Origin: Candidatus Auribacterota bacterium
Lineage (GTDB): Bacteria > Auribacterota > JAFGBW01
Length of the DNA: 24,496 nt
Direction: 5' to 3'
Assembly: GCA_016932965.1 (NCBI GenBank)
Contig: JAFGBW010000112.1
Coordinates: 1 to 24,496, forward strand
How positions within the stretch are numbered: position 1 is the first letter of the stretch; each line of letters opens with the position of its first letter. The position numbers and the translations under genes were made by a program. Shown here one piece after another: positions 9,504 to 24,496 of this stretch. Under the pieces are notes generated by a model. That model was given only the letters and a program-made list of their open reading frames with translations, searched no databases and was not told the origin of the DNA.

Positions 9504-11122
9504 AACTCGAAGTCCTAAAGGGATCGGAAAAAGGACGGATTTACAATTTAGATGAAAAAAATGAAATCCTGATTGGAAGAGATAAAAACTGCCCCGTGTG
9601 CTTAAACGACGCAAAAAGTTCAAGGCATCATGCAAGGATTTTTTCTGAAAACGGGCATACCATGCTGGAGGATATGGGCAGCACTAACGGTACCACCCTG
9701 AATGGAAAAACGATCTTTAAATATAAATTATGCGAAAATGATGAGATCATCATCGGTAATACTCTTTTCTTAGTCAGGGAGCTAGAATCATCCGCTTCCA
9801 CGAATTCTTCCACTTCTATCCAGATTCACGACGGTTCCTCCACGGTGATTCTTTCCACACTCCCCCACAAGGAAGCGGATCTTTTGAAGGGCAGCATGCC
9901 GATGGTCACTGCCGATGAACTTCTCCTTGAGAATAAAAACCTGAAAAGAGTCTGTGAAATCAGCCATTTATTCGTCACTCACCGGGATGACATGACCATC
10001 ATCAATCAGGTTCTACAAACCATGCTGGAAATCCTTGCCGCTGATACCGCATGTATCCTGAGTCTTCCCCCGAACGAAAAAAACTGGGTAACTCGTGCCA
10101 TCATCACCAGTACGGGGAACGCCAATCTTGTTCAGGTAAGCCGTACCATTATTCAGCAGGCTTTAAATGAGGGCGTGGCTGTCTTGACGTCAGATCCTTT
10201 GACAGATGCCCGTTTTGATCCCAGTATCAGCATCATTTCACAGGGAATTTCATCAGCCATATGCGCTCCCATTAAGGTAGAAAACCGGTTCCATGGCGTT
10301 CTATTTTTCGACCGAAGGCGGAAAACGGAAGTTTTCAATTCCATGGATCTCAGATTAGGCGCCACCATAGCCAACATTTTAGGACTATTTTTAGAAAAAG
10401 AAAAACTGGAAAATGAAGCGAGAAAAAAAGAGCGAATGGCGGTCATCGGCGAAGTCATGGCCGGGCTGGCCCATCACACCAAGAACATTTTAACGGGTCT
10501 CAAATTCAGCATCAATGCACTGGAAGTCGTGGTCCAAAAAAAGCACATGGACTCCATTTCCAAGTGCTTAAAGGCCATCTCGGCTCAGGAGAAACGCATT
10601 TCCGACCTGGTGCTGAACATGCTCTCTTATTCGAAAGACCGGACACCTGTCCGTTCGGAAGTTAATTTAAAAAATTTGATCGAAGATGTCACCGGACCCT
10701 ATCAATCCCATTTCGAAGAAAAGAAAATCACATTTAAATTGAATTACAACGAAAAGACCCCTCTTATTCAGGCTGAAGAACCAGCGCTTCACCGCGCCTT
10801 ATTAAATTTACTGGTCAACACAATGGATTCTTTTAAAAATAAATCTGAAAGTCTCCCGGAAACAATCTCCATCACCGTCTATCCTTCTCCTGATCAGGAG
10901 AAAGTCTATCTGGAATTTTACGATACCGGATGCGGTATTTCTCCAGGAAATCTAGAAAAATTGTTCACTATTTTTTACTCCACCAAAGGCTCCGAAGGTA
11001 CCGGTCTTGGCCTGGCTGTGGTCCAAAAAATCATTCAGGAACATGGGGGGCATGTATCCGTCGACTCCCAGGAAGGAAAATGGACAAAATTCACTCTTGA
11101 ACTCCCTGTCAAAAAGGATTAA
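9500..11122 (+). CDS. FHA-GAF sensor histidine kinase
   Basis: A 540-residue soluble histidine kinase with no membrane helix. Order of domains: FHA at residues 1-90, with phosphothreonine-binding signatures GR (26-27), SSRHH (40-44) and GSTNG (60-64); a spacer; GAF at about 150-300 (VLQTMLEIL...ISSAICAPI...GVLFFD); an H-box with the unusual double histidine AHHTKN (H325, H326); and the GHKL ATPase with N-box N440, G1 DTGCGI and G2 GTGLGL. It would sense a small molecule or redox cue through GAF and dock a phosphothreonine protein through FHA, linking Ser/Thr and His-Asp signalling. No response regulator lies downstream; the divergent receiver gene at 8348-8734 is a candidate partner. Confidence 0.9.
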   Translation: MKLEVLKGSEKGRIYNLDEKNEILIGRDKNCPVCLNDAKSSRHHARIFSENGHTMLEDMGSTNGTTLNGKTIFKYKLCENDEIIIGNTLFLVRELESSASTNSSTSIQIHDGSSTVILSTLPHKEADLLKGSMPMVTADELLLENKNLKRVCEISHLFVTHRDDMTIINQVLQTMLEILAADTACILSLPPNEKNWVTRAIITSTGNANLVQVSRTIIQQALNEGVAVLTSDPLTDARFDPSISIISQGISSAICAPIKVENRFHGVLFFDRRRKTEVFNSMDLRLGATIANILGLFLEKEKLENEARKKERMAVIGEVMAGLAHHTKNILTGLKFSINALEVVVQKKHMDSISKCLKAISAQEKRISDLVLNMLSYSKDRTPVRSEVNLKNLIEDVTGPYQSHFEEKKITFKLNYNEKTPLIQAEEPALHRALLNLLVNTMDSFKNKSESLPETISITVYPSPDQEKVYLEFYDTGCGISPGNLEKLFTIFYSTKGSEGTGLGLAVVQKIIQEHGGHVSVDSQEGKWTKFTLELPVKKD

Positions 11123-11735: not shown

Positions 11736-12365
11736 ATGAATATAGCTAAAAACTGTGTTAGTCGTCTTTCCAGTTACAAAAATGCCCTGACTAAATTAAA
11801 AAATCTCGGTTTCACCAGAGTCTTTTCCGATAATCTGGCTGACTTAATCAGCGTGACTTCTTCACAAGTGAGAAAAGATTTCTCATTATTCGGCATTTCA
11901 GGAAACAGAAAAGGCGGCTACAATATCGAAGAATTATTCAATCAGATCAATCATATTCTTGGAAAAGATATCGTCCACAACATCATCATTGTTGGCGCAG
12001 GTTATATCGGCAAAGCGCTGATGAAATATAAAACCTTTGAAAAAGAAGGCATCAAAATTAGAGCCGTTTTTGATTCTGACCCTGCAAAAATCAACCGTGA
12101 ATCTTCCATTCCTATTCTGCCGGTAAAAGAGCTGAAAGAATTTATTCAGGCCCAAAGAATAAAAATCGGAATCATCACTGTCCCTGAAAATTCCGCCCAG
12201 CTCGTTTTGGATCAAATGATCGATGCGGGCATCCAAGGGGTACTCAATTTTGCCCCGATCAATTTAAAAGAGTATCCGGGAATCATCATCAATAATGTGA
12301 ATATCGAGCTGGAGCTGGAAAATGTGATTTATTACACGCAAACCATGGAAAATAATAAAAAGTGA
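11736..12365 (+). CDS. rex: redox-sensing transcriptional repressor Rex
   Basis: A 209-residue protein of the usual Rex length. The N-terminal winged helix includes LGFTRVFSDNLADLISVTSSQVRKDFSLFG, matching the Rex recognition-helix region. The C-terminal Rossmann domain has the NADH-binding loop VGAGYIG (G87-x-G89-x2-G92), an acidic strand end (VFDSDP), and the FAPI motif of Rex dimers. It represses fermentation and hydrogenase genes until NADH accumulates. It is first in the operon, preceded by its own operator-like palindrome, and its TGA overlaps the GTG of the kinase gene, so sensor and hydrogenase genes are co-transcribed. Confidence 0.93.
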   Translation: MNIAKNCVSRLSSYKNALTKLKNLGFTRVFSDNLADLISVTSSQVRKDFSLFGISGNRKGGYNIEELFNQINHILGKDIVHNIIIVGAGYIGKALMKYKTFEKEGIKIRAVFDSDPAKINRESSIPILPVKELKEFIQAQRIKIGIITVPENSAQLVLDQMIDAGIQGVLNFAPINLKEYPGIIINNVNIELELENVIYYTQTMENNKK

Positions 12366-14206
12366 AAATCAGTTCCATCAAGACGAAATTATTGTTCAAT
12401 TGCCTTGCTGTGATACTTGTACTGGGCATCTTGATATCCGGTCAGGGATATTACGTGATCAAGAAAGATATCATAGACCGGGCACAAAAACAGGTAAAAA
12501 ATGATCTGGGAGTGGCACGACTCGTTTTTTACAGCGAATTGCTTTATCTCCAAAAAACTTTTTCCGTGATTCGTTACCTCACGGATATTGAAGAATTAAA
12601 ACAGCGACTCAACTTAGATTACCTGTTTGTCGTGGACATCAGGAATCAGGAATCCATTAAAAGCGACATCGCAAAAGAAGCCATCTCCAGAAAACAAGGC
12701 CTGGGAGGAGCCAGAATCATAGAAGCGGATGAATTGAGTTTGATCAGTAAAGAACTATCCGAACGCTGTATCATGCCCATCCGGTATACTCCCAAAGCCA
12801 ATCCAACAAACAGAAAAATGCTTGAACAAGCTATGTCGTTAGAATACGCGCGCCCTTTTCTTGATCCGGACGGAAAACCAAACAAGGTCATGTATGGAGG
12901 CATCATTCTCAATAAGGATTTTACGCTGGTTGATAAAATCCGGGACCATGTATTTGAAAATCGGATGTATGAAGGAAAACCCATAGGAACAGTCACTATC
13001 TTTTTGGACGATACCAGGATTACCACTAATGTCCTGGATGATAACGGCCAAAGAGCCGTCGGCACCCGAGTGTCCAGCAACGTGTATAAAAAACTATTAC
13101 AAGAAGGGCGTTCCTGGTTTGACCGGGCATTTGTGGTGACTGACTGGTACCTGACAGCCTATGAACCCATTAAAAACATACATGATAAAATCATCGGAGC
13201 GCTGTATGTCGGAACCCTGGAAAAACCCTTCGACGATTTACAGAGGAATATCTTTCTGTTCTTTGTCGGCATCATCCTGTTCAGTATTTTTCTGGGAACC
13301 ATTCTTTCTCTTATTCTGGATGGCTCTTTTTCGAGACCTTTTCGACTATTGATTGAAGCGACCCGCTCCGTGGCAGAAGGAAATTTGAAACATCGTATCC
13401 CGACCCGCTCTTCAATTTCAGAATTGAATGAATTAGCCGAATCATTCAATAAAATGGGAGAAAAATTAAATGAAAGGGATTTGAATCTCAAGGAAACCAA
13501 TGAAAAACTCGCTGCCATGAATCAAAATTACCTGGATCTCATTGGTTTTGTCTCTCATGAATTGAAAGGCATCCTCGGATCCACCGTCATGAATATTTAT
13601 TCCATCAAAGAAGGTCTGCTGGGACCTTTGAATGACAAACAGCAGAAAGCCGTCAATGCCACTGCCAAAACTCTGGATCACTTTGAGACGATGGTTAAGA
13701 ATTATCTCGACCTTTCTCATATTGAAAAAGGTGAAATGGAATTGAAATTAAAACAAATAGATTTGAATGAAGATATCATCAAGCCAGCTTTTTCTCATTT
13801 TGAAAAACAGATCCATGAAAAAGGCATGCTCATTGAAAATAACGTATCTCCAGGATTGACCCTGGTGGCTGACAAAAATCTGATGCTGATTGTCTGTGAT
13901 AATCTATTGAGTAATGCCTGTAAATACAGCGCATCCAAGGGGACCTTAAAAGTGGAAGGTCGTTGCGACACCTCCCATGTTCATTTCAGCTTATACAACG
14001 ATGGATCCCCAATCCGGGAGGAAGAAAAAGGACACCTTTTTAAAAAATTTTCACGGCTTCCCGGAACAGAAAAAATAAAAGGAACCGGTATCGGTTTATA
14101 TATCACCAAGGAAATCATCGAAAAACATAACGGAAAGATCACCGTGGAATCCCTCCCACGAGGCAATCAGTTTTTAATCACCCTACCGAGAGGAACAATC
14201 AGATGA
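12362..14206 (+). CDS. cache-HAMP sensor histidine kinase in the hydrogenase operon
   Basis: A 614-residue membrane sensor kinase starting at a GTG that overlaps the rex stop. Helix 1 (about residues 10-32) and helix 2 (about 296-319) flank a ~260-residue extracytoplasmic region that looks like a cache-type ligand sensor (LFVVDIRN..., GTVTIFLDDTRITTNV, GALYVGTLEKP). Then follow HAMP (about 320-375), HisKA with phospho-acceptor H399 in FVSHELKG, and the HATPase domain with N-box SNACKYS and GTGIGLYITKEI. The family class is clear; the ligand is unknown. Its place between rex and hydB, with an ATGA overlap into hydB, implies it controls or tunes the hydrogenase, probably through the receivers encoded downstream. 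Confidence 0.88.
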   Translation: MKISSIKTKLLFNCLAVILVLGILISGQGYYVIKKDIIDRAQKQVKNDLGVARLVFYSELLYLQKTFSVIRYLTDIEELKQRLNLDYLFVVDIRNQESIKSDIAKEAISRKQGLGGARIIEADELSLISKELSERCIMPIRYTPKANPTNRKMLEQAMSLEYARPFLDPDGKPNKVMYGGIILNKDFTLVDKIRDHVFENRMYEGKPIGTVTIFLDDTRITTNVLDDNGQRAVGTRVSSNVYKKLLQEGRSWFDRAFVVTDWYLTAYEPIKNIHDKIIGALYVGTLEKPFDDLQRNIFLFFVGIILFSIFLGTILSLILDGSFSRPFRLLIEATRSVAEGNLKHRIPTRSSISELNELAESFNKMGEKLNERDLNLKETNEKLAAMNQNYLDLIGFVSHELKGILGSTVMNIYSIKEGLLGPLNDKQQKAVNATAKTLDHFETMVKNYLDLSHIEKGEMELKLKQIDLNEDIIKPAFSHFEKQIHEKGMLIENNVSPGLTLVADKNLMLIVCDNLLSNACKYSASKGTLKVEGRCDTSHVHFSLYNDGSPIREEEKGHLFKKFSRLPGTEKIKGTGIGLYITKEIIEKHNGKITVESLPRGNQFLITLPRGTIR

Positions 14207-17200
14207 ATGCTACCCCCATGCAACTATTATTGAAAGCCAGACAAAACGCGATTCATAAAAACCTCGCCAAATGGTTTTCTGTTACCCGTATTTCTGTCGG
14301 CATGTCCACCTGCGAAATTGCAGCGGGCTCAAAAATTGTCTGGAATGCCTTTGAAGAAGAAATTAAAAAAAGAAAGATCAAGGACGTTTATTTGACGCGC
14401 AAAGGATGCGTCGGGCGGTGCCACCTGGAACCCACTGTCGAGGTTTATCAGGCAGGTAAAGCCCCTTTTAAATATGAAAATGTGGACGAAGCGAAGGCCA
14501 GAAAAATCATTCACGATCATCTGATCAAAAACAACGTCCCCTGCCCCAGCACTAAAACGAATTTTAAGGAGATGAGCCGTGATATACTGACCGACAAATC
14601 GAAATTCATTTTTGGCGATATCAGCTATTTTAAAAAGCAAAAACGCATGGCTCTTCGTAACTGCGGTGTGATTGATCCTGAAAATATTCATGATTATCTG
14701 GCCATTCGCGGAGGAGAAGCGCTGGCAAAGGTCCTGACGGAATATACGCCGGAGAGAGTGATTGATGATATCATCAAATCCGGTTTACGCGGACGAGGTG
14801 GAGGAGGTTTCCCGACCGGTATCAAGTGGCGTTATGTGGCTGAACAAAATAATCCGAAAAAATATCTCATCTGCAATGCTGACGAAGGCGATCCCGGAGC
14901 CTTCATGGACCGGAGCATAATTGAGGGTGATCCTTTTTCCGTTCTGGAAGCCATGGCCATAGGCGGTTACGCTATCGGGTCCAGCCACGGGATCATCTAT
15001 ATCCGTGCCGAATATCCCCTGGCTGTAGAGCGATTGAATATCGCCATCAAACAGGCCAAGGAACACCATCTCTTAGGACACCGCATCCTCGGCACTTCCT
15101 TTTCATTCGACATCACATTAGTCCTTGGAGCAGGGGCCTTTGTCTGCGGGGAAGAAACCGCCCTCATTCATTCCATCCAGGGAGAAAGAGGCATGCCCAG
15201 AAATAAACCCCCTTACCCTGCAGTCAAAGGACTATGGGATGCCCCGACCTTGATCAACAATGTGGAAACTTGGGCCAATATCCCAGTGATCATCTTGGAT
15301 TCTTATGAATCTTTCGCATCCATTGGGACAGAAAAAAGCAAGGGAACCAAGGTATTTGCCCTAGCAGGAAAAGTTAATAATACCGGCCTCGTCGAGGTGC
15401 CAATGGGGACCACTTTGGGAGAAGTAATTTTTGATATCGGAGGAGGAATCAAAAACGGATTGAAATTCAAAGCAGCACAAACCGGAGGCCCCTCCGGAGG
15501 CTGCCTGCCGTCCCAATTTTTAAATACACCTATTGACTATGATTCTCTTATCAGTGCCGGCTCCATCATGGGGTCCGGAGGGCTGATTGTGATGGATGAA
15601 AAGGATTGCATGGTGGATGTGGCAAAATACTTTCTGGATTTCACCCAGGACGAATCCTGCGGCAAATGCACCCCCTGCCGTGAAGGCACAAAAAGAATGC
15701 TGGAAATATTGAACCGTATCACGACCGGACACGGAAAAATGGAGGATTTAGACAAACTCCAAAAATTGGGGGAAACGATCCAAAAGACCGCCTTGTGCGG
15801 ACTGGGTCAGACAGCGGCCAAACCGGTCCTTTCCACCTTAAAATTTTTTCGCGATGAATATCTGGCTCATATCCTCGAAAAACGCTGTCCGGCAGCTGTA
15901 TGCGGTGAACTTTTCGTCTCATCCTGCCAGCATACCTGTCCGGTGAATATCGACATACCGGGTTTTATCGGTTTGATTCATGAAAAAAAATACAAGGAAA
16001 GTCTGGAATTAATCCTCGAAAGAAATCCCTTCCCTTCGGTTTGTGGAAGAGTCTGTCACCATCCTTGTGAATCCAACTGTAGACGAGGTAAAATGGATGA
16101 ATCTGTTTCCATCATGTCCCTCAAACGTTTCGCGGCTGATGCATACGAAAGCCGTCACGTAAAATTAGCCAGCTATAAAGGCAAACTGTGCAAAGAAAAA
16201 GTGGCTGTCATTGGAAGCGGACCAGCCGGTTTATCCTGTGCATGGCAGCTTGCCAAACGAGGATACCAGGTGACTGTTTTTGAAAAGCAGTCTGTTCCTG
16301 GCGGAATGCTGACTTTAGGAATCCCCGAGTACCGTCTTCCAAAAAAAATCGTGAAAAAAGAAATCCAACGAATACTGGATACGGGAGTGGTCATCAAAAC
16401 AAACACGGCATTGGGAAAGAATTTATCGATCCCTCAACTCCAGAAACAGGAATTCAAAGCGATCTATCTGGCAGTAGGAGCATGGAAGGACAGCCCCTTG
16501 AACGTTCCCGTATCCGGATCTCCAACTGTAATGGGCGCCCTGGAATTTCTAAGAAACTATAATCTCCACGGCCTGAAAAACATACCCATAAAGGGTAAAA
16601 AAATCGCCGTGATCGGAGGCGGTAATGCCGCCATGGACGTTGCCAGAACATCCCTTCGCCTCGGTGCCAAAGAAGTCCATGTAATATACAGAAGAACAAG
16701 GGAAGCCATGCCCGCCATTTCTGAAGAAGTGGAGGAGGCAGAAAAAGAAGGGATCCAGTTCCATTTCATGATGATCCCATCTGAAATCAAAAACAACAGT
16801 CTCTCCTATCAACTGGAATGCATTCTTGCCAAAGAAGGCGAATTCGATCTTTCAGGTAGAAGAAAACCTGTTGCTTCAGAAGAAAAAAAGAGCATTGATG
16901 CTGATATCTTCATTAGTGCCATCGGAGCCAAACCGGATTTACCTGACGAAATCAAACAGGGAATTGATTTTTCAAATCCAGGATCCTGCAAAGTGAATCC
17001 CCTAACGTTAGAAACTTCGATACCCTGGATTTTTGCCGGAGGCGACGTGGTGAGAGGAGGGGGAACTGTGATCGAAGCCATTGCTGACGGGGAAAAAGGA
17101 GCTGTTTCCATTGACCTATATTTACAGGGAATGCCTCTTGACGAAAACCGCTTTGTCATCAAAAGCGAACGAAAAAAAGTGGCCTACTTTGACCCTTCTG

Positions 17201-17349
17201 CTCCGGTAGAAAAAAGAGGAAGGCCAGAAAAATCCACGCTTCGGATGAAAAAAAGGCGGACTTGTTTTAAGGAAGTCGAATTGGGTCTATCAGAAAAAGA
17301 AGCGATAAGAGAAGCTTCCCGTTGTTTAAGATGTGACCGCAAAGAGTAG
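14203..17349 (+). CDS. hydB: HydB-type NuoF subunit fused to GltD/NfnB-like flavoprotein
   Basis: A 1048-residue fusion. Residues 1-~120: thioredoxin-like 2Fe-2S domain with C37, C69 and C73 visible. About 150-545: NuoF core with the FMN/NADH loop RGRGGGGFPTG (196-206), NADEGDPGAF, and the 4Fe-4S ligands C486-x2-C489-x2-C492 and C532. About 560-640: cysteine-rich ferredoxin-like segment (C562, C567, C575, C579, C614, C618, C622, C626). About 665-1000: GltD-like reductase with FAD loop GSGPAG (671-676), NADPH loop GGGNAAMD (805-812), YRRTREAMPA and GGDVVRGGG. The end carries CLRC. The usual HydB C-terminal ferredoxin is replaced by this module. It should accept electrons from or pass them to HydA/HydC and offers two flavin/nucleotide sites, allowing bifurcation or NAD/NADP coupling (inference). 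Confidence 0.92.
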   Translation: MNATPMQLLLKARQNAIHKNLAKWFSVTRISVGMSTCEIAAGSKIVWNAFEEEIKKRKIKDVYLTRKGCVGRCHLEPTVEVYQAGKAPFKYENVDEAKARKIIHDHLIKNNVPCPSTKTNFKEMSRDILTDKSKFIFGDISYFKKQKRMALRNCGVIDPENIHDYLAIRGGEALAKVLTEYTPERVIDDIIKSGLRGRGGGGFPTGIKWRYVAEQNNPKKYLICNADEGDPGAFMDRSIIEGDPFSVLEAMAIGGYAIGSSHGIIYIRAEYPLAVERLNIAIKQAKEHHLLGHRILGTSFSFDITLVLGAGAFVCGEETALIHSIQGERGMPRNKPPYPAVKGLWDAPTLINNVETWANIPVIILDSYESFASIGTEKSKGTKVFALAGKVNNTGLVEVPMGTTLGEVIFDIGGGIKNGLKFKAAQTGGPSGGCLPSQFLNTPIDYDSLISAGSIMGSGGLIVMDEKDCMVDVAKYFLDFTQDESCGKCTPCREGTKRMLEILNRITTGHGKMEDLDKLQKLGETIQKTALCGLGQTAAKPVLSTLKFFRDEYLAHILEKRCPAAVCGELFVSSCQHTCPVNIDIPGFIGLIHEKKYKESLELILERNPFPSVCGRVCHHPCESNCRRGKMDESVSIMSLKRFAADAYESRHVKLASYKGKLCKEKVAVIGSGPAGLSCAWQLAKRGYQVTVFEKQSVPGGMLTLGIPEYRLPKKIVKKEIQRILDTGVVIKTNTALGKNLSIPQLQKQEFKAIYLAVGAWKDSPLNVPVSGSPTVMGALEFLRNYNLHGLKNIPIKGKKIAVIGGGNAAMDVARTSLRLGAKEVHVIYRRTREAMPAISEEVEEAEKEGIQFHFMMIPSEIKNNSLSYQLECILAKEGEFDLSGRRKPVASEEKKSIDADIFISAIGAKPDLPDEIKQGIDFSNPGSCKVNPLTLETSIPWIFAGGDVVRGGGTVIEAIADGEKGAVSIDLYLQGMPLDENRFVIKSERKKVAYFDPSAPVEKRGRPEKSTLRMKKRRTCFKEVELGLSEKEAIREASRCLRCDRKE

Positions 17350-17360
17350 GAGAAAATATC

Positions 17361-19139
17361 ATGCATAAAATGCTGAACATAAAAATAGACGGAAAGCCGG
17401 TTAAAGTTCCGGAAAACCACACCATTCTCCAGGCCGCAGATGAGGCAGGGATCCATATTCCAAGACTGTGTTATCATCCCAAATTACCCGCCATTGGAGC
17501 ATGCAGAGTCTGTATCGTGGAAGTAGAAGGAATGAAACAATATCCTCCTGCATGTTGCACAAAAGTGAATGAAGGAATGAACATCAGAACCAATACACCC
17601 AATATCCGCATGGCACGTCGCGATATTGTCGAACTCATTTTAGATAATCATCCCAGGAATTGCCAGATTTGTGAAAAAAATAATAACTGCGAATTGCAAA
17701 GCCTGGCCAACACACTTGGTGTCAGAGAATTTCGGTATGAAGGTGAACGAAAAAAATACAATGCGGATTCTTCCTTTTCTCTGACACGGGATCCGGAAAA
17801 ATGCATCCTATGCGGAAAATGCGTGAGAGTCTGTGCCCAGATACAGGGAGTGAATGCATTGACTTACGCCTATAGAGGGTTTAAAAGCACCGTGATGCCT
17901 GCCTTCAATCTACCCATCCAGGATAGTGTATGCATCAACTGCGGACAATGCACCCTGTTTTGCCCCACGGCAGCATTAATGGAAAAGGATTCGACGGAAG
18001 AAGTGTGGAAAAATCTCCATGATCCGGAAAAAACCGTGATTGTTCAGATTGCACCGGCTGTCCGCGTAGCTATTGGAGAAGCATTCGGACTTCCTCCCGG
18101 AACAGATAAAACCGGAGCAACTGTCACGGCACTTAGAATGCTCGGATTTGACGTGATATTTGACACGCAGTTTTCAGCAGATTTGACAATCATGGAAGAA
18201 GGACATGAACTGATCGAGCGCATCAAACAAAATGGAAAACTTCCCATGTTTACCTCCTGCTGTCCCGGATGGGTCAAATTCTGCGAACATTTTCACCCGG
18301 ACTTTCTGGATAACATCTCCACATGTAAATCCCCCCAGCAAATGATGGGCGCCCTGATCAAAACTTATTATGCCAAAAAATCGACCATTCCTAAGGAAAA
18401 AATCTACAGTGTGAGCATCATGCCATGCACTGCTAAAAAATTCGAAGCAACCCGTCCGGAAATGAATTCAAGCGGTTTTAGGGATGTAGACGCAGTCCTG
18501 ACGACGCGGGAATTGATCAAAATGATCCGTCAGGCCGGAATTCAATTCGAAAAATTGGCGGATTCTGAATTCGACGACCCCTTGGGAGAATCCACAGGAG
18601 CAGCAACCATATTCGGTGTGACAGGAGGTGTCATGGAAGCGGCCCTGCGAACCGCTTACGAAGTATTGACCTGCAACGAACTTCCGGGAATCGATTTCAA
18701 ACCTGTCAGAGGAATGGAAGGAATCCGTGAAGCAACAGTTGAGATCAATGACATGAAAATTAATGTGGCTGTTCTTTACAGCCTATCGAATGTTAATAAA
18801 ATTCTTTCTGAAATCAGGGCGGGAAAAAGGAATTATCACTTTATAGAAATCATGGCCTGCCCGGGAGGTTGCCTGGGTGGCGGAGGGCAACCTTATCCAC
18901 AGGGAGCAACCGATCCTCTGGATAAACAATTTTATCAACAAAGGGCCCAGGGTCTATATCATATTGATCAAAACAAGAAATATAGAAAATCACATGTGAA
19001 TCCACAAATCAGCAAAATCTATCAGGATTTTTTAACTCAACCCTTGGGCTCAGTTTCCCATGAGTTGCTGCATACCCATTATCATGTCCGAACACCCAGA
19101 GGAATCACTCATATTTCAGAAGAAACCGTGAGTCTTTAA
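17361..19139 (+). CDS. hydA: [FeFe] hydrogenase catalytic subunit HydA
   Basis: A 592-residue catalytic subunit that reduces protons or oxidises H2. All expected clusters are present. N-terminal 2Fe-2S: C37, C48, C51, C65. Next, the His-Cys 4Fe-4S site: H97, C101, C104, C110. Two 4Fe-4S ferredoxin sites follow: C148/151/154/158 and C191/194/197/201. The H-cluster motifs are intact: L1 TSCCPGW (C300), L2 MPCTAKKFE (C356), and L3 MACPGGCLGGGGQP (C500, C504). The small-subunit tail follows (SHELLHTHYHVRTP). It lacks the extra C-terminal domains of the longer Thermotoga HydA. AGGAGA lies seven bases before the ATG and the gene follows hydB by 11 bases. Nothing is missing, so it should be functional if matured. 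Confidence 0.96.
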   Translation: MHKMLNIKIDGKPVKVPENHTILQAADEAGIHIPRLCYHPKLPAIGACRVCIVEVEGMKQYPPACCTKVNEGMNIRTNTPNIRMARRDIVELILDNHPRNCQICEKNNNCELQSLANTLGVREFRYEGERKKYNADSSFSLTRDPEKCILCGKCVRVCAQIQGVNALTYAYRGFKSTVMPAFNLPIQDSVCINCGQCTLFCPTAALMEKDSTEEVWKNLHDPEKTVIVQIAPAVRVAIGEAFGLPPGTDKTGATVTALRMLGFDVIFDTQFSADLTIMEEGHELIERIKQNGKLPMFTSCCPGWVKFCEHFHPDFLDNISTCKSPQQMMGALIKTYYAKKSTIPKEKIYSVSIMPCTAKKFEATRPEMNSSGFRDVDAVLTTRELIKMIRQAGIQFEKLADSEFDDPLGESTGAATIFGVTGGVMEAALRTAYEVLTCNELPGIDFKPVRGMEGIREATVEINDMKINVAVLYSLSNVNKILSEIRAGKRNYHFIEIMACPGGCLGGGGQPYPQGATDPLDKQFYQQRAQGLYHIDQNKKYRKSHVNPQISKIYQDFLTQPLGSVSHELLHTHYHVRTPRGITHISEETVSL

Positions 19140-19165: not shown

Positions 19166-19741
19166 ATGACCATAACCGTAAAAAAAACTGAAATCACCCC
19201 GGAGATGAAAAAAAAATTAGGTCAATTGGCCGCATTCATCAAGTCGCAGACTCCCCTGCATGACAATCAAAGCCTGCTCATGTCGGTTTTGCATTACATC
19301 CAGATTTTATTCGGATTTTTGCCCAGAGAAGCCATGGAACTCGTTTCAGAGCAATTGCACATACCCACCGCCCATATTCATGGCATGGCTACTTTCTATA
19401 ATTATTTCACCTTGAAACCCCGGGCGCCTTATCAGATTTTTATGTGCAAAGGAACTGCCTGTTATGTTGCGGGTGGAGCCAGAGTTTTGGATAAACTGAA
19501 GGAAGTATTAAAAACGGATATTGGAGAAAATTCCCCTGATGGGCTTTTCAGCCTGAATATCACCCGTTGTCTGGGCTGTTGCGGGCTATCACCGGTGATG
19601 CAGATAAACGAAGATATTCACGTGCGGATAGTTCCGGAAAAAATTCCTGAAATCATTGAGCATTATAAACAAAAGCACAAAAAGAAAAACATTGAATCAA
19701 CGCAGACCGAAATCGGAGGTTTTGAACATCCGGCGCAGTAA
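19166..19741 (+). CDS. hydC: NuoE-like hydrogenase subunit HydC
   Basis: A 191-residue thioredoxin-like 2Fe-2S protein of the NuoE/HydC family. Ligands are visible as C94-x4-C99 (CKGTAC) and C135-x3-C139 (CLGCC), with the family segments LGFLP-like FGFLPREAM and HIHGMATFYNYF. It would transfer electrons between HydB flavin and HydA. A strong Shine-Dalgarno AGGAGG precedes the ATG. The tail (KHKKKN...GGFEHPAQ) extends a little beyond the usual end. The gene order B-A-C differs from the C-B-A order of Thermotoga. Confidence 0.93.
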   Translation: MTITVKKTEITPEMKKKLGQLAAFIKSQTPLHDNQSLLMSVLHYIQILFGFLPREAMELVSEQLHIPTAHIHGMATFYNYFTLKPRAPYQIFMCKGTACYVAGGARVLDKLKEVLKTDIGENSPDGLFSLNITRCLGCCGLSPVMQINEDIHVRIVPEKIPEIIEHYKQKHKKKNIESTQTEIGGFEHPAQ

Positions 19742-19789: not shown

Positions 19790-20188
19790 ATGATCCAAAA
19801 AATACTCATCATTGACGATGATACGGATTTTATTGATGCCTGCAGAAACATGCTAGAGGCAAAAAATTATCAGGTTATCTCCGCTTCACGATATGATCAG
19901 GTATTCCCCGCCATTGAGGATGATCTTCCGGATTTGATTCTGCTGGACATCCTGATGGATCATAAACCCGCCGGCTTTGAGATCGCTGAAAAACTCTCAA
20001 AACATCCAACATGGTGTTCCATAGCGGTTGTTTTTCTGACTGGCTATTTCATGAGAACAGGATTAAAAGACCTGCAAAATGAGGTGATCAAAAAATGGCC
20101 CAATATCAAATTTGTTCTGGATAAACCCGTCAAACCCGACTTATTGCTCGAAACCATCATTAAGATTTCCGATAGAATAACCGAATAA
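19790..20188 (+). CDS. receiver-only response regulator, hydrogenase locus copy 1
   Basis: A 132-residue lone receiver domain with acidic D9-D10-D11, phospho-acceptor D53 (LILLDILM), threonine in FLTGY and lysine in DKPVKP. It is very similar in plan to the receiver at 21366-21743, sharing the unusual LLD-x-MM/LM-x-HK-x2-GF-x-IA segment after the phosphorylation site and a KPVKP-x2-LL end, so the two look like duplicates. No DNA-binding or enzymatic output is present. It sits 48 bases after hydC and 62 before hydE on the same strand. Phosphorylation by the operon's cache-HAMP kinase is an inference from context. Confidence 0.88.
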   Translation: MIQKILIIDDDTDFIDACRNMLEAKNYQVISASRYDQVFPAIEDDLPDLILLDILMDHKPAGFEIAEKLSKHPTWCSIAVVFLTGYFMRTGLKDLQNEVIKKWPNIKFVLDKPVKPDLLLETIIKISDRITE

Positions 20189-20250: not shown

Positions 20251-21330
20251 ATGAATAAACAGATCACCGACACACTCAACCGGGTACATAACGCTTTGAT
20301 GCCCAAAACCGCTGATTTGACTTTTCTTCTTTCCCTTAAAACGAAAGAAGAACAGCAAATACTTTTCCGTTTTGCTGATCAAGTCAGACAGAAACATTGC
20401 GGAAAAGGAATCTTATTGCGGGGAATCATCGAATTTTCAAATCGTTGCGCTAATCCCTGTCCTTATTGCGGACTTTCCTTCCATAATCATTCCCTTAGCA
20501 GATATCAGTTATCTAAGAATGAAATCCTGGATACAGTTGACCGCCTTCATCATCAGAAAATCCGAACCGTTATCCTTCAATCAGGTGAAGACCCCCAAAT
20601 GGATCCCGACTGGCTGGCAGATGTGATCAGAAGCATCCGTGCCAGATTTGAAATGGCTATCACTCTTTCCGTGGGGGAAAAAAGCCTTGAGACTTACCGA
20701 TGCTGGAAAAAGGCCGGGGCAGACAGATATCTCTTAAAAATAGAAACCGCCAGCAGATCCATATACGATTCACTTCATCCCGGAATGAATTTTTCAAAAC
20801 GCATCCTGTGCCTGAAAAATTTAACAAAACTGGGTTATCAGGTTGGATGCGGAAACATGATCGGTTTAATAGGACAAACGACTGCTACCATTGCCCGCGA
20901 TATTCAATTCTTTAAAAAAATGGATTTTGACATGATCGCGATCGGCCCGTTCATTCCTCATAGCAAAACCCCTCACGGCCAGGAAAAACCCGGCGACCCT
21001 GAACTTGTATTAAGGACTCTTGCCCTGACCAGAATTGTAACAAAAAACAGTCATCTGCCGTCTACCACTGCTTTGGCCAGTTTTGGAAATGATCTTAAGA
21101 ACCAGGGCTTCCTGGCAGGCGCCAACGTATTGATGCTGAACTTCACACCCCCTTCTGTCCTGAAAGATTACGACATTTATCCTGGCAGAAAATACACGTA
21201 TTTGGATGAGAATGATTCCTCATCCAGTCTGCATGCATGGGCAGACAGTTTGAATCGAATAATTGATTATTCCATAGGAAATAGTTTAAAATCAGCTACA
21301 ACCCAAACCGTAAACCAGCAATACATTTAA
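20251..21330 (+). CDS. hydE: [FeFe] hydrogenase maturase HydE (radical SAM)
   Basis: A 359-residue radical SAM enzyme of HydE length. The SAM-binding 4Fe-4S triad is C66-x3-C70-x2-C73 in FSNRCANPCPYCG, as in HydE and biotin-synthase relatives. HydE features include LQSGEDP, the ITLSVGE strand, the LKIETAS segment, MIGLIGQT and FIPHSKTP near the C-terminal half of the barrel. HydE works with HydG and HydF to build the 2Fe subcluster of the H-cluster, acting on the HydG product to form the dithiolate bridge. Reading frame and motifs are intact, unlike hydF downstream. A biotin synthase or PylB identity was considered, but the hydrogenase context and motifs favour HydE. Confidence 0.92.
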   Translation: MNKQITDTLNRVHNALMPKTADLTFLLSLKTKEEQQILFRFADQVRQKHCGKGILLRGIIEFSNRCANPCPYCGLSFHNHSLSRYQLSKNEILDTVDRLHHQKIRTVILQSGEDPQMDPDWLADVIRSIRARFEMAITLSVGEKSLETYRCWKKAGADRYLLKIETASRSIYDSLHPGMNFSKRILCLKNLTKLGYQVGCGNMIGLIGQTTATIARDIQFFKKMDFDMIAIGPFIPHSKTPHGQEKPGDPELVLRTLALTRIVTKNSHLPSTTALASFGNDLKNQGFLAGANVLMLNFTPPSVLKDYDIYPGRKYTYLDENDSSSSLHAWADSLNRIIDYSIGNSLKSATTQTVNQQYI

Positions 21331-21365: not shown

Positions 21366-21743
21366 ATGAGCAAGAAAATATTGATAGTCGATGATGATCC
21401 GCAATACCGTGAAGCCACTACAACCATGCTTGAAGCAAAAGGGTATGAAGTCTTCACCGCAAAAAACGGCCAGGAAGGTTTTGACAAAGCAATACAAATC
21501 ATGCCTCACCTCATTTTATTGGATGTGATGATGACGCATAAGTCTGAAGGTTTTGATATTGCGAGAAATCTCCGGCAAAGCGAAGCCAAAAATATTCCCG
21601 TCATCATTGTAACCGGCGTACGGAAAGAAATGAGCCTTCCCTTTGGATTTCAGCCCGATGATGATTGGCTGCCTGTCAAAGCTGTCCTGGAAAAGCCTGT
21701 TAAACCGGAAATGCTTCTGGATGCTATTTCTCAGCACATTTGA
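21366..21743 (+). CDS. receiver-only response regulator, hydrogenase locus copy 2
   Basis: A 125-residue lone receiver with D9-D10-D11, phospho-acceptor D53 (LILLDVMM), threonine in IVTGV and lysine in EKPVKP. A GAAGGAG ribosome-binding sequence lies just upstream. It shares the HKSEGFDIA-type segment and the C-terminal KPVKP-x2-LL pattern with the copy at 19790-20188, so the pair flank hydE as probable paralogues. A 14-residue stretch (FGFQPDDDWLPVKA) before the conserved lysine is longer than in a typical CheY. The output is unknown; it may bind a maturase or hydrogenase protein, or belong to a relay with the operon kinase. Confidence 0.88.
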   Translation: MSKKILIVDDDPQYREATTTMLEAKGYEVFTAKNGQEGFDKAIQIMPHLILLDVMMTHKSEGFDIARNLRQSEAKNIPVIIVTGVRKEMSLPFGFQPDDDWLPVKAVLEKPVKPEMLLDAISQHI

Positions 21744-21798: not shown

Positions 21799-22659
21799 AT
21801 GCTGCAAACTCCCAAATCACTCCGTTTGCATATTGAAATTTTTGGACGAACCCATGTTGGAAAAGCGATTTTTTTAATTTAGTCGCGGGACAGGATATCG
21901 CCATCACCTCAGAGCATCCTGGAACCACGAAAGATGTCGCACAAAAAACATGGAATTGCTCCCCATAGGCCCCGTTGTTTTTCTGGACACCGCAGGCCTC
22001 GATGATTTCAGCATGTTGGGAAGCCACCGGCCACCGCATCGCCAAAACACGAAAGATATTCAATCAAACAGATGTGATTTGGATCATCATGGTTCTGCCA
22101 TGGTAACCAAAGAGAACGAATATTTGTAGGTACTAAAAAGGTTGAATATGAAACCGGATTTGGTTGTCTGTGATTCCCAGGTAGTGGACCGGATGGTTTT
22201 GGAAACACCTGCCGATATTGTTTGCACTACTTTTTCGATTCTATTCACACGATTTCGAGGAGATTTGAATGAAATTGTTTGGGGTGTCCTCCGGATTAAA
22301 GATTTAAAAAAGGGTTACAAGATTTTGATTGCCGAAGCTTGCAGTCACCATCCACTAGAAGATGACATAGGCCGTGTTAAGAGTCCAAAATGGCTAAAAG
22401 GATACTCAGGAGCAGAACTGGATATCACAACCTGTTCCGGAGCTGATTCTTCGGATGACCTCAGTCTTTATAGACTGGTCATCCATTGCGGCGGATTCAT
22501 GATCAATAAGAAACTCATGCTTTCACGAATACAGGATGCAAAGAGACACAGGTCCCAATAACAAAGTACAGTTTATGTATTTCGTATATTCAAAAAGTCA
22601 CTGAAAGAGTGCTGCAGCCCTTCCCTGAAGCCTTAAAAAAGTATCGTCTTTTCCCCTGA
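21799..22659 (+). pseudogene. hydF: decayed hydF (H-cluster maturation GTPase)
   Basis: HydF pieces can be followed in order across changing frames. ATG 21799 gives TPKSLRLHIEIFGRTHVGKA (P-loop with GKS changed to GKA), then TAG. A second frame (~21873-21949) gives NLVAGQDIAITSEHPGTT. A third (21950-~22030) gives LLPIGPVVFLDTAGLDD (the DTAG switch). A fourth (22035-~22104) gives RIAKTRKIFNQTDVIWIIM. After a probable deletion, VLKRLNMKPDLVVCDSQ begins the C-terminal cluster domain (open 22142-22561: FSILFTRFRGDL, EACSHHP, DDIGRVK). A last frame (22552-22659) gives VPITKYS...ERVLQPFP. The final HCGGC ligand motif reads HCGGF. Frames run 1-0-2-0-2-1 (modulo 3). HydF normally carries the 2Fe precursor to HydA; this copy cannot make a normal protein. 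Confidence 0.9.
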
Positions 22660-22668
22660 ATGATCTTC

Positions 22669-24135
22669 TTATTGGTTTTTTTTGCGCCCTAGAAAATACC
22701 GGGCTTCGGAATAAATTCTGCGTTTGATTTTTTTCCCTAAATTATACAGCGACTGCGTCCGGCATTTCCGATAAAACCAGGTCCATGCCTCACCTGTCCG
22801 AAACCTCATCCAAAGTTGCACATGATCCCTGATGTTTAAAAAATCCAGGTATGTTCTGTTGATGTCATGAGACGGATAATCAGGCCAGTTTACCACCGAT
22901 TTCTCACCGCCGTTGTAATCCTCAAACAATTCGGTAGCAAGATACCCCTTCTGTTTCAGCTGTAAAAAGACGGGAGTTCCTGGAAGAGGTGTAAAAATAG
23001 AAACCTGAACATGAGAAAGCCACCCCAGAACAAGATACTTCTTTATACAGGAAAGCGTGAAAAGATCTTTTTCGCGGGTGGAAGAAGGCAATCCCACTTG
23101 AAACGTGCCATATACATTGATTCCTGTCTTCCTGCACAGCAAAAGAAAAGATTCCAGTTTTTCTGCATCAATTATTTTACCGATGGCCCGCTGGATTTCA
23201 GGATGCAATGATTCGATGCCGATCCGGATCTGATAATAACCCGCTTTTTTCAAAAGAGGAAGCCATTGGGTCCGGATGCTGTTGAATCTTCCCAGCGCTT
23301 CAATTTTAAATCCGGATCTTCTTCTGATCAATTCGCTGCAAAAAGATTCGATGAAATCCGCGTTCCCGAAATGGTCTTCTTCGTCAAAAAAAAACCCCTC
23401 CACTTGAGGGTACTTTTTTTTCAAGTGAGCCATCTCATCTGCCACATCATGAAGGGCACGGCAACGATGGCCGCTTTTACGATAATAAATGTTTTTGGCT
23501 ACACAAAAAGGGCATTGTCCGACACATCCTCTCGAAGCATACATTTGAATCTCCCGGTATTGAGAGGAAGGTTCTCCCGGAACAGCATAATCCATCCTGG
23601 AAACATCCTCGTCTTCCGGCCAGGGATAACGGGAAAAAGGAATGGAATAATCGGAATAAAAAATCCTTTCCGTTCCCAGGTATTTTTTACTTTTGAAAAA
23701 AGAAAGCACGGCTCCCTCATATTCTCCCGTGAAAACATAGTCTATCCCGTCTGAGAGCGCACGTTCGGGATCATGAGTCACATGAGGGCCACCAAAAAGA
23801 AGCCTGGTACCGGCCTTTCTCTTTATAGCCAGCGCCAGCTGGAGATTCTCCCTGTAAAGGGTTGAATCCGTTTCCATGAATAAAAAAGCAGGCCGGACGG
23901 AAAGTATTTTTGCAAGATACTGATCAGAAGAAAGTTTTTCCAGACAACCGTCCATCATCTTGACCGTCAGCTTTGTTTCTCTTTTCATGAGAGCGGACAA
24001 AGAAGCAAGAAAAAAAGGATAGTAGGAAAAATGGCGGTCCGGTTCCATCACCGTCTCGGACCACCGGGAGGGAGAATGGATCGTTAATCGGCCGGATTGG
24101 GTCCGACCAAGACTATTGGCGATGATGAGATCCAT
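22669..24135 (-). CDS. B12-binding-type radical SAM protein
   Basis: A protein of about 488 residues from the ATG at 24135. An in-frame TTG at 24177 would add 14 basic residues and deepen the overlap with the upstream gene, so the ATG is preferred (no strong Shine-Dalgarno sequence at either). The N-terminal ~180 residues look like a cobalamin-binding Rossmann domain (LLFGGPHVTHDP, DYVFTGEYEG). The radical SAM triad is C204-x3-C208-x2-C211 (SRGCVGQCPFC), followed by FFFDEEDHF, IRIGIESLHPEIQ and FTPLPGTP. Such proteins often methylate carbon centres or rearrange rings in lipids, glycans or cofactors. Substrate is unknown. It is convergent with the hydF remnant, 9 bases apart, and its C-terminus is rich in Arg/Lys and aromatic residues. 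Confidence 0.85.
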   Translation of the reverse strand: MDLIIANSLGRTQSGRLTIHSPSRWSETVMEPDRHFSYYPFFLASLSALMKRETKLTVKMMDGCLEKLSSDQYLAKILSVRPAFLFMETDSTLYRENLQLALAIKRKAGTRLLFGGPHVTHDPERALSDGIDYVFTGEYEGAVLSFFKSKKYLGTERIFYSDYSIPFSRYPWPEDEDVSRMDYAVPGEPSSQYREIQMYASRGCVGQCPFCVAKNIYYRKSGHRCRALHDVADEMAHLKKKYPQVEGFFFDEEDHFGNADFIESFCSELIRRRSGFKIEALGRFNSIRTQWLPLLKKAGYYQIRIGIESLHPEIQRAIGKIIDAEKLESFLLLCRKTGINVYGTFQVGLPSSTREKDLFTLSCIKKYLVLGWLSHVQVSIFTPLPGTPVFLQLKQKGYLATELFEDYNGGEKSVVNWPDYPSHDINRTYLDFLNIRDHVQLWMRFRTGEAWTWFYRKCRTQSLYNLGKKIKRRIYSEARYFLGRKKNQ

Positions 24136-24496
24136 GCGATGAAAAAAATTGCGGAGGCCGGCCTTTTTTCTTTTCAATGAGGCCCATCACTCCTTCTTTC
24201 CGGAACCGGCGATATATTTGATAAAAGGATTCCCGTGTAAAACCATATTTATTACTGATCTCGCATATATTGGGTTTAGACATCGTCGCCGCTTCTCTCA
24301 TCATTTCTAGCTTCTGCTGGACTTCGTCCTTAGAATGAATGAAATCATCTAAACTCATAACCTTCTTTTTTGGGAAAAAACGATGTGGAAAAAAATAATT
24401 CTTTGAAAGTTTTTCCGCATCCTTTTTCTTTAAAAGCCCAACGACCCCCCGAGCCTGAAACCGTTTCTCATAATTATAAAAATCCTGCCTGCTGTA
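24113..24496 (-). CDS. HTH-repeat protein, 3' part (runs off the window)
   Basis: The reading frame is open from the right edge through the internal ATG at 24358 to TAG at 24113, giving 127 visible codons, so the gene is truncated by the window. It contains two similar helix-turn-helix units: SRQDFYNYEKRFQARGVVGLLKKK at the edge (first residues split here as SRQDFYNYEK and RFQARGVVGLL) and TRESFYQIYRRFRKEGVMGL further on, followed by EKKKGRPP. This layout resembles the N-terminal DNA-binding part of IS-type integrases or a stand-alone HTH regulator. No catalytic core follows. Its end overlaps the radical SAM gene by about 23 bases. A transposase remnant and a small regulator are both possible. 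Confidence 0.6.
   Translation of the reverse strand, partial: YSRQDFYNYEKRFQARGVVGLLKKKDAEKLSKNYFFPHRFFPKKKVMSLDDFIHSKDEVQQKLEMMREAATMSKPNICEISNKYGFTRESFYQIYRRFRKEGVMGLIEKKKGRPPQFFSSHGSHHRQ

Follow-up and report, generated by a model that had tools for sequence, protein, structure and literature searches.

A hydF pseudogene in the [FeFe]-hydrogenase cluster of a Candidatus Auribacterota bacterium whose assembly carries an intact hydF on another contig

Maturation of [FeFe]-hydrogenases follows a standard pathway in which HydG forms the Fe(CO)2CN unit, HydE forms a diiron precursor, and HydF aids the synthesis of dithiomethylamine and its delivery to HydA. Published in vitro work on the strict need for HydF is mixed: activation without HydF has been described for extract-based reactions (PMC3457958), and the [4Fe-4S] cluster of HydF was essential in defined maturation reactions (PMC12752695). 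The aspartate ammonia-lyase gene (aspA) has been described as almost always immediately beside hydF, an arrangement found in many hydrogenase-bearing anaerobes, and its product can provide ammonia for making the dithiomethylamine ligand (PMC11736057). Among the loci examined, the hydABC clusters closest to the one described here were those of an Omnitrophota-labelled metagenome-assembled genome (MAG; locus L049, HydA 71% identical) and of Firestonebacteria-type genomes (HydA 66-70%).

The window, the whole stretch of 24,496 nucleotides that was analysed, is contig C179 of a MAG of 3.14 Mb in 300 contigs, which is 92.6% complete with 2.0% contamination. All genes of its hydrogenase cluster lie on the forward strand, in the order Rex, histidine kinase, hydB fusion, hydA, hydC, first response regulator, hydE, second response regulator, and hydF remnant. 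The Rex-type redox repressor (11736-12365) was assigned with NCBIfam NF003996, and the sensor histidine kinase (12362-14206) and first response regulator (19790-20188) by comparison with the clusters of relatives. The hydB gene (14203-17349), identified by Pfam domains and full-length relatives, is intact and fused to a GltD-like pyridine-nucleotide oxidoreductase; this fusion of 1048 aa, NAD(P) oxidoreductase part included, also occurs in many distant relatives. The intact hydA (17361-19139) encodes a group A [FeFe]-hydrogenase (NF040763, 894 bits against a cut-off of 765) and provides the single PF02906 match, and hence the only HydA found, in the assembly. Intact hydC (19166-19741; PF01257) and hydE (20251-21330; TIGR03956, 308 bits against a cut-off of 254.6) complete the set, and the second response regulator (21366-21743), which has homologues in the L049, L050, L189, and G001 clusters, lies directly 5' of the hydF remnant.

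A Rex-histidine kinase-hydBAC cluster with two response regulators in Firestonebacteria-type MAGs (L189, G061) matches the window in gene content and order, with HydA 69%, HydB 66%, and HydC 65% identical. In the window, however, hydE lies between the two response regulators and the hydF remnant follows the second, whereas L189 has neither gene at those places. In G001, a genome that belongs to the order of the window's organism, hydF lies right after a response regulator in its own cluster, so a hydF at the position seen in the window is not odd.

Frameshift-aware DNA-to-protein alignment with three intact HydFs placed the remnant from 21796 or 21799 to 22632 or 22647, and the lesions agreed across all three alignments. 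In place of an uninterrupted HydF frame of ~400 codons, six pieces were recovered on the forward strand, collinear with HydF (TIGR03918) from residue 1 to ~404. The N-terminus and P-loop lie in frame 1 (21799-21867), the switch I region in frame 3 (21870-21947), the G3 region (MELLPIGPVVFLDTAGLDD) in frame 2 (21950-22015), a piece reaching residue ~96 in frame 3 (22023-22091), the end of the dimerisation domain with the tetramerisation/cluster domain in frame 2 (22094-22543), and a C-terminal piece in frame 1 (22552-22632). The TIGR03918 profile recovered the third and fifth pieces, and tblastn the fifth as well as the other four. The four small frame changes fall at ~21868, ~21948, ~22016-22022, and ~22535-22551; for the third of these, the frame-3 piece KTRKIFNQTDVIWIIM also matches HydF in tblastn, which showed this one piece beyond those of the alignments. 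The C-terminal part matches HydF with a tblastn E-value of 3e-51 and the profile with 187.7 bits, which excludes chance resemblance. On the opposite strand, a B12-type radical SAM gene (22669-24358) with weak matches to HpnJ and others ends no more than ~40 bases from the remnant, and its start is overlapped by a helix-turn-helix-like ORF near the contig end, possibly belonging to a mobile element.

Beyond the frame changes, the remnant contains a nonsense codon (TAG at 22127) and lacks ~125 residues (roughly HydF 97-222) between the piece ending at ~22091 and the next, from 22094. The missing segment comprises the end of the GTPase domain and part of the dimerisation domain, so that PF18128, which occupies residues 182-280 in the intact HydF of contig C229 (see below), is incomplete; no repeats of note that might explain the loss were found at the deletion edges. 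The P-loop GxxxxGKS reads GRTHVGKA, with Ser replaced by Ala, and is followed by a frame change. Of the cluster ligand motifs, CSH (CxH) is kept and HCGGC has become HCGGF, the last cluster Cys being replaced by Phe. Sites that do not vary in any of the intact HydFs compared are changed as well (N19H, N382K, and G384S in C229 numbering). The first-pass annotation, made from the window, had described a hydF pseudogene with multiple lesions and these same two motif losses beside undamaged hydA, hydB, hydC, and hydE, and this description was borne out throughout. Rex, the histidine kinase, HydB, HydA, and HydC each aligned to relatives as one uninterrupted segment, HydE exceeded its family cut-off without stops, and hydB and hydA retain the codon-position pattern of constrained genes. 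The hydrogenase genes beside the remnant thus give no hint of decay.

Homopolymers hold two of the frame changes (T7 at ~21868 and A6 at ~21948), which taken alone might be sequencing slips, as the remaining lesions could not. A working second hydF that merely looks broken through errors of sequencing or assembly is nevertheless highly improbable, since homopolymer slips do not explain the 125-codon deletion, the nonsense codon, or the loss of invariant residues for catalysis and cluster binding, and all neighbouring genes of the cluster are free of frame changes.

To assess loss of constraint, sites that never vary among 14 intact HydFs from the surrounding clade were compared with the remnant, in which 69 of them can be read. 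Ten of these 69 are replaced, including the Ser of the P-loop and the final cluster Cys; positions of the same kind are broken at 0-3 of ~70 sites in the nearest intact relatives and at 5-7 in the most divergent. Because third positions approach saturation over such distances, dN/dS was replaced by codon-position ratios. In the longest fragment (22094-22543), the ratio of first-and-second to third codon-position differences was 0.45-0.57, compared with 0.24-0.48 in pairs of intact genes. After the TAG, 139 codons remain open from a TTG at 22142, and the longest fragment, which holds most of this stretch, is 52-55% identical to intact HydFs, as might be expected if the stretch were kept as a small functional protein such as a HydF-like binding domain. 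We consider this very unlikely, given that the cluster motif in the fragment has lost its last Cys, the 27 C-terminal residues lie in another frame, invariant positions are replaced there as elsewhere, and the codon-position ratio is relaxed. With its collinear homology, disabling lesions, and relaxed constraint, the region is a HydF pseudogene, unable to make HydF.

The identity of the longest fragment to intact HydFs marks the remnant as an old divergent copy and no fresh duplicate; a recent duplication of the C229 hydF was rejected on the same grounds, identity being only ~49-55%. If the replacements at invariant positions are neutral, 14.5% replaced codons correspond very roughly, by our own estimate and not as a measured date, to 0.07 changes per base after the loss of constraint. 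The divergence from every intact copy found is far larger, and the decay therefore looks younger than the split of the remnant from the intact copies. In a first HydF tree, the remnant grouped with the HydFs of C229, G013, G001, and G036 (98/91), without any one of them being singled out as its closest kin. When the Firestonebacteria-type copies were added, the remnant was placed on a long branch, and neither a sister position to C229 (p-AU 0.37) nor one to the G001 copy (p-AU 0.33) was rejected.

The first-pass annotation had suggested searching the rest of the genome for a second hydF and for hydG, and a profile search of the assembly recovered both intact. The hydF (C229:12194-13378) scored 515 bits against a TIGR03918 cut-off of 325.6 and encodes the GTPase, dimer, and tetramer domains; hydG (C169:3967-5388) scored 438 bits against a cut-off of 312. 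Together with hydE in the window, a complete HydEFG set over curated cut-offs is therefore present in the assembly. Directly upstream of the C229 hydF lies aspA, a pairing that was also observed in G013, Smithella, G007, G014, G021, G053, UBA4795, and each of the eight hydF-bearing Firestonebacteria-type genomes, and by which the C229 copy looks like a normal, functional maturation gene. Firestonebacteria-type genomes carry one intact hydF, paired with aspA, which in at least four of them (G061-G064) lies on a contig other than that of the hydABC cluster resembling the one in the window. The C229 pair is likewise away from hydABC and otherwise shows nothing notable relative to the known aspA-hydF unit. 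Of the options raised in the first-pass annotation, that of another hydF serving the enzyme is very probably the right one; since all three maturases are present for the only HydA detected, HydF-independent maturation need not be invoked. Its third option, a locus that has just begun to decay, applies to the redundant hydF only and not to the hydrogenase genes, in which neither the alignments nor the codon-position pattern indicate decay.

As the MAG consists of 300 contigs, C229 and C169 are placed in the same organism by binning and composition, and the remaining doubt is mainly on the bin membership of C229. The comparison of tetranucleotide composition drew on 25 contigs or parts of contigs. 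(Contig C100 of genome G000, locus L163, consists of N at 10,437 of its 11,339 bases, a segment masked or withheld.) The signature of C229 correlated with the window at r = 0.70 and with the reference contigs at a mean of 0.60, whereas for nine stretches of other genomes the correlation with the window was 0.52 or less. The assembly's only nadA also sits on C229; it is not closest to the nadA of the nearest relatives in the order, which could mean that C229 is foreign or that nadA was acquired laterally. Were C229 a contaminant, an organism lacking a working hydF would either mature HydA without it or make an inactive enzyme, and the estimated contamination of the MAG, the type of nadA, and the partial hydrogenase activation without HydF reported from extracts (PMC3457958) all lean that way. 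We regard this as unlikely, because the composition of C229 fits the bin and not foreign stretches, the first tree places its HydF among those of the same phylum, it holds the sole nadA, the [4Fe-4S] cluster of HydF was found essential in defined systems (PMC12752695), and hydB and hydA show the codon-position signature of genes under constraint. The narrower case, a foreign C229 together with HydF-free maturation of an intact HydA under selection, is more improbable still.

Among relatives, no hydF was found in the assembly of G060 (Firestonebacteria RIFOXYA2_FULL_40_8, the genome of L050), in which hydA and hydG are present. All eight relatives of G060 that were searched have hydF, including the near-twin G061 (HydA 94% identical), so its absence from G060 is probably due to incomplete assembly. 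HydF-less relatives were accordingly rejected as support for HydF-independent maturation, G060 being the sole case.

As a separate observation, a HypC/HupF domain (PF01455) was found fused to a HydE-like radical SAM protein in genome G000 (contig C79, L135:1874-3169, forward strand), L050 (3143-4324), and L189 (~7951-7022). The radical SAM part of the C79 protein falls below the HydE cut-off, and its gene adjoins that of a HycI-type hydrogenase maturation protease; HypA- and HypB-like genes follow the L050 fusion. A limited literature search turned up no account of such a fusion. The anaerobic source of CO in [NiFe]-hydrogenase maturation is, to our knowledge, open, and the fusion protein may be a radical SAM factor of that maturation.

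Very probably, then, the hydF remnant is a decayed redundant copy at the end of the Rex-histidine kinase-hydB-hydA-hydC-response regulator-hydE-response regulator cluster, and the C229 hydF serves in trans. Expression of the C229 product and its role in serving HydA are inferred, as is the sequence of events. The hydF paired with aspA on C229 would make a working GTPase and scaffold, which, with HydE from the window and HydG from C169, would carry out the standard maturation of HydA in trans. Because it was dispensable, the copy within the cluster would have lost constraint and gained the frame changes, nonsense codon, 125-codon deletion, and active-site replacements. The remnant is an ordinary redundant pseudogene, and there is no evidence here for a hydrogenase maturing without HydF. 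The case cautions that a dead maturase gene in a hydrogenase cluster is uninformative on the enzyme as long as the remaining genome has not been searched, and it illustrates a hydF encoded apart from hydABC and paired with aspA.
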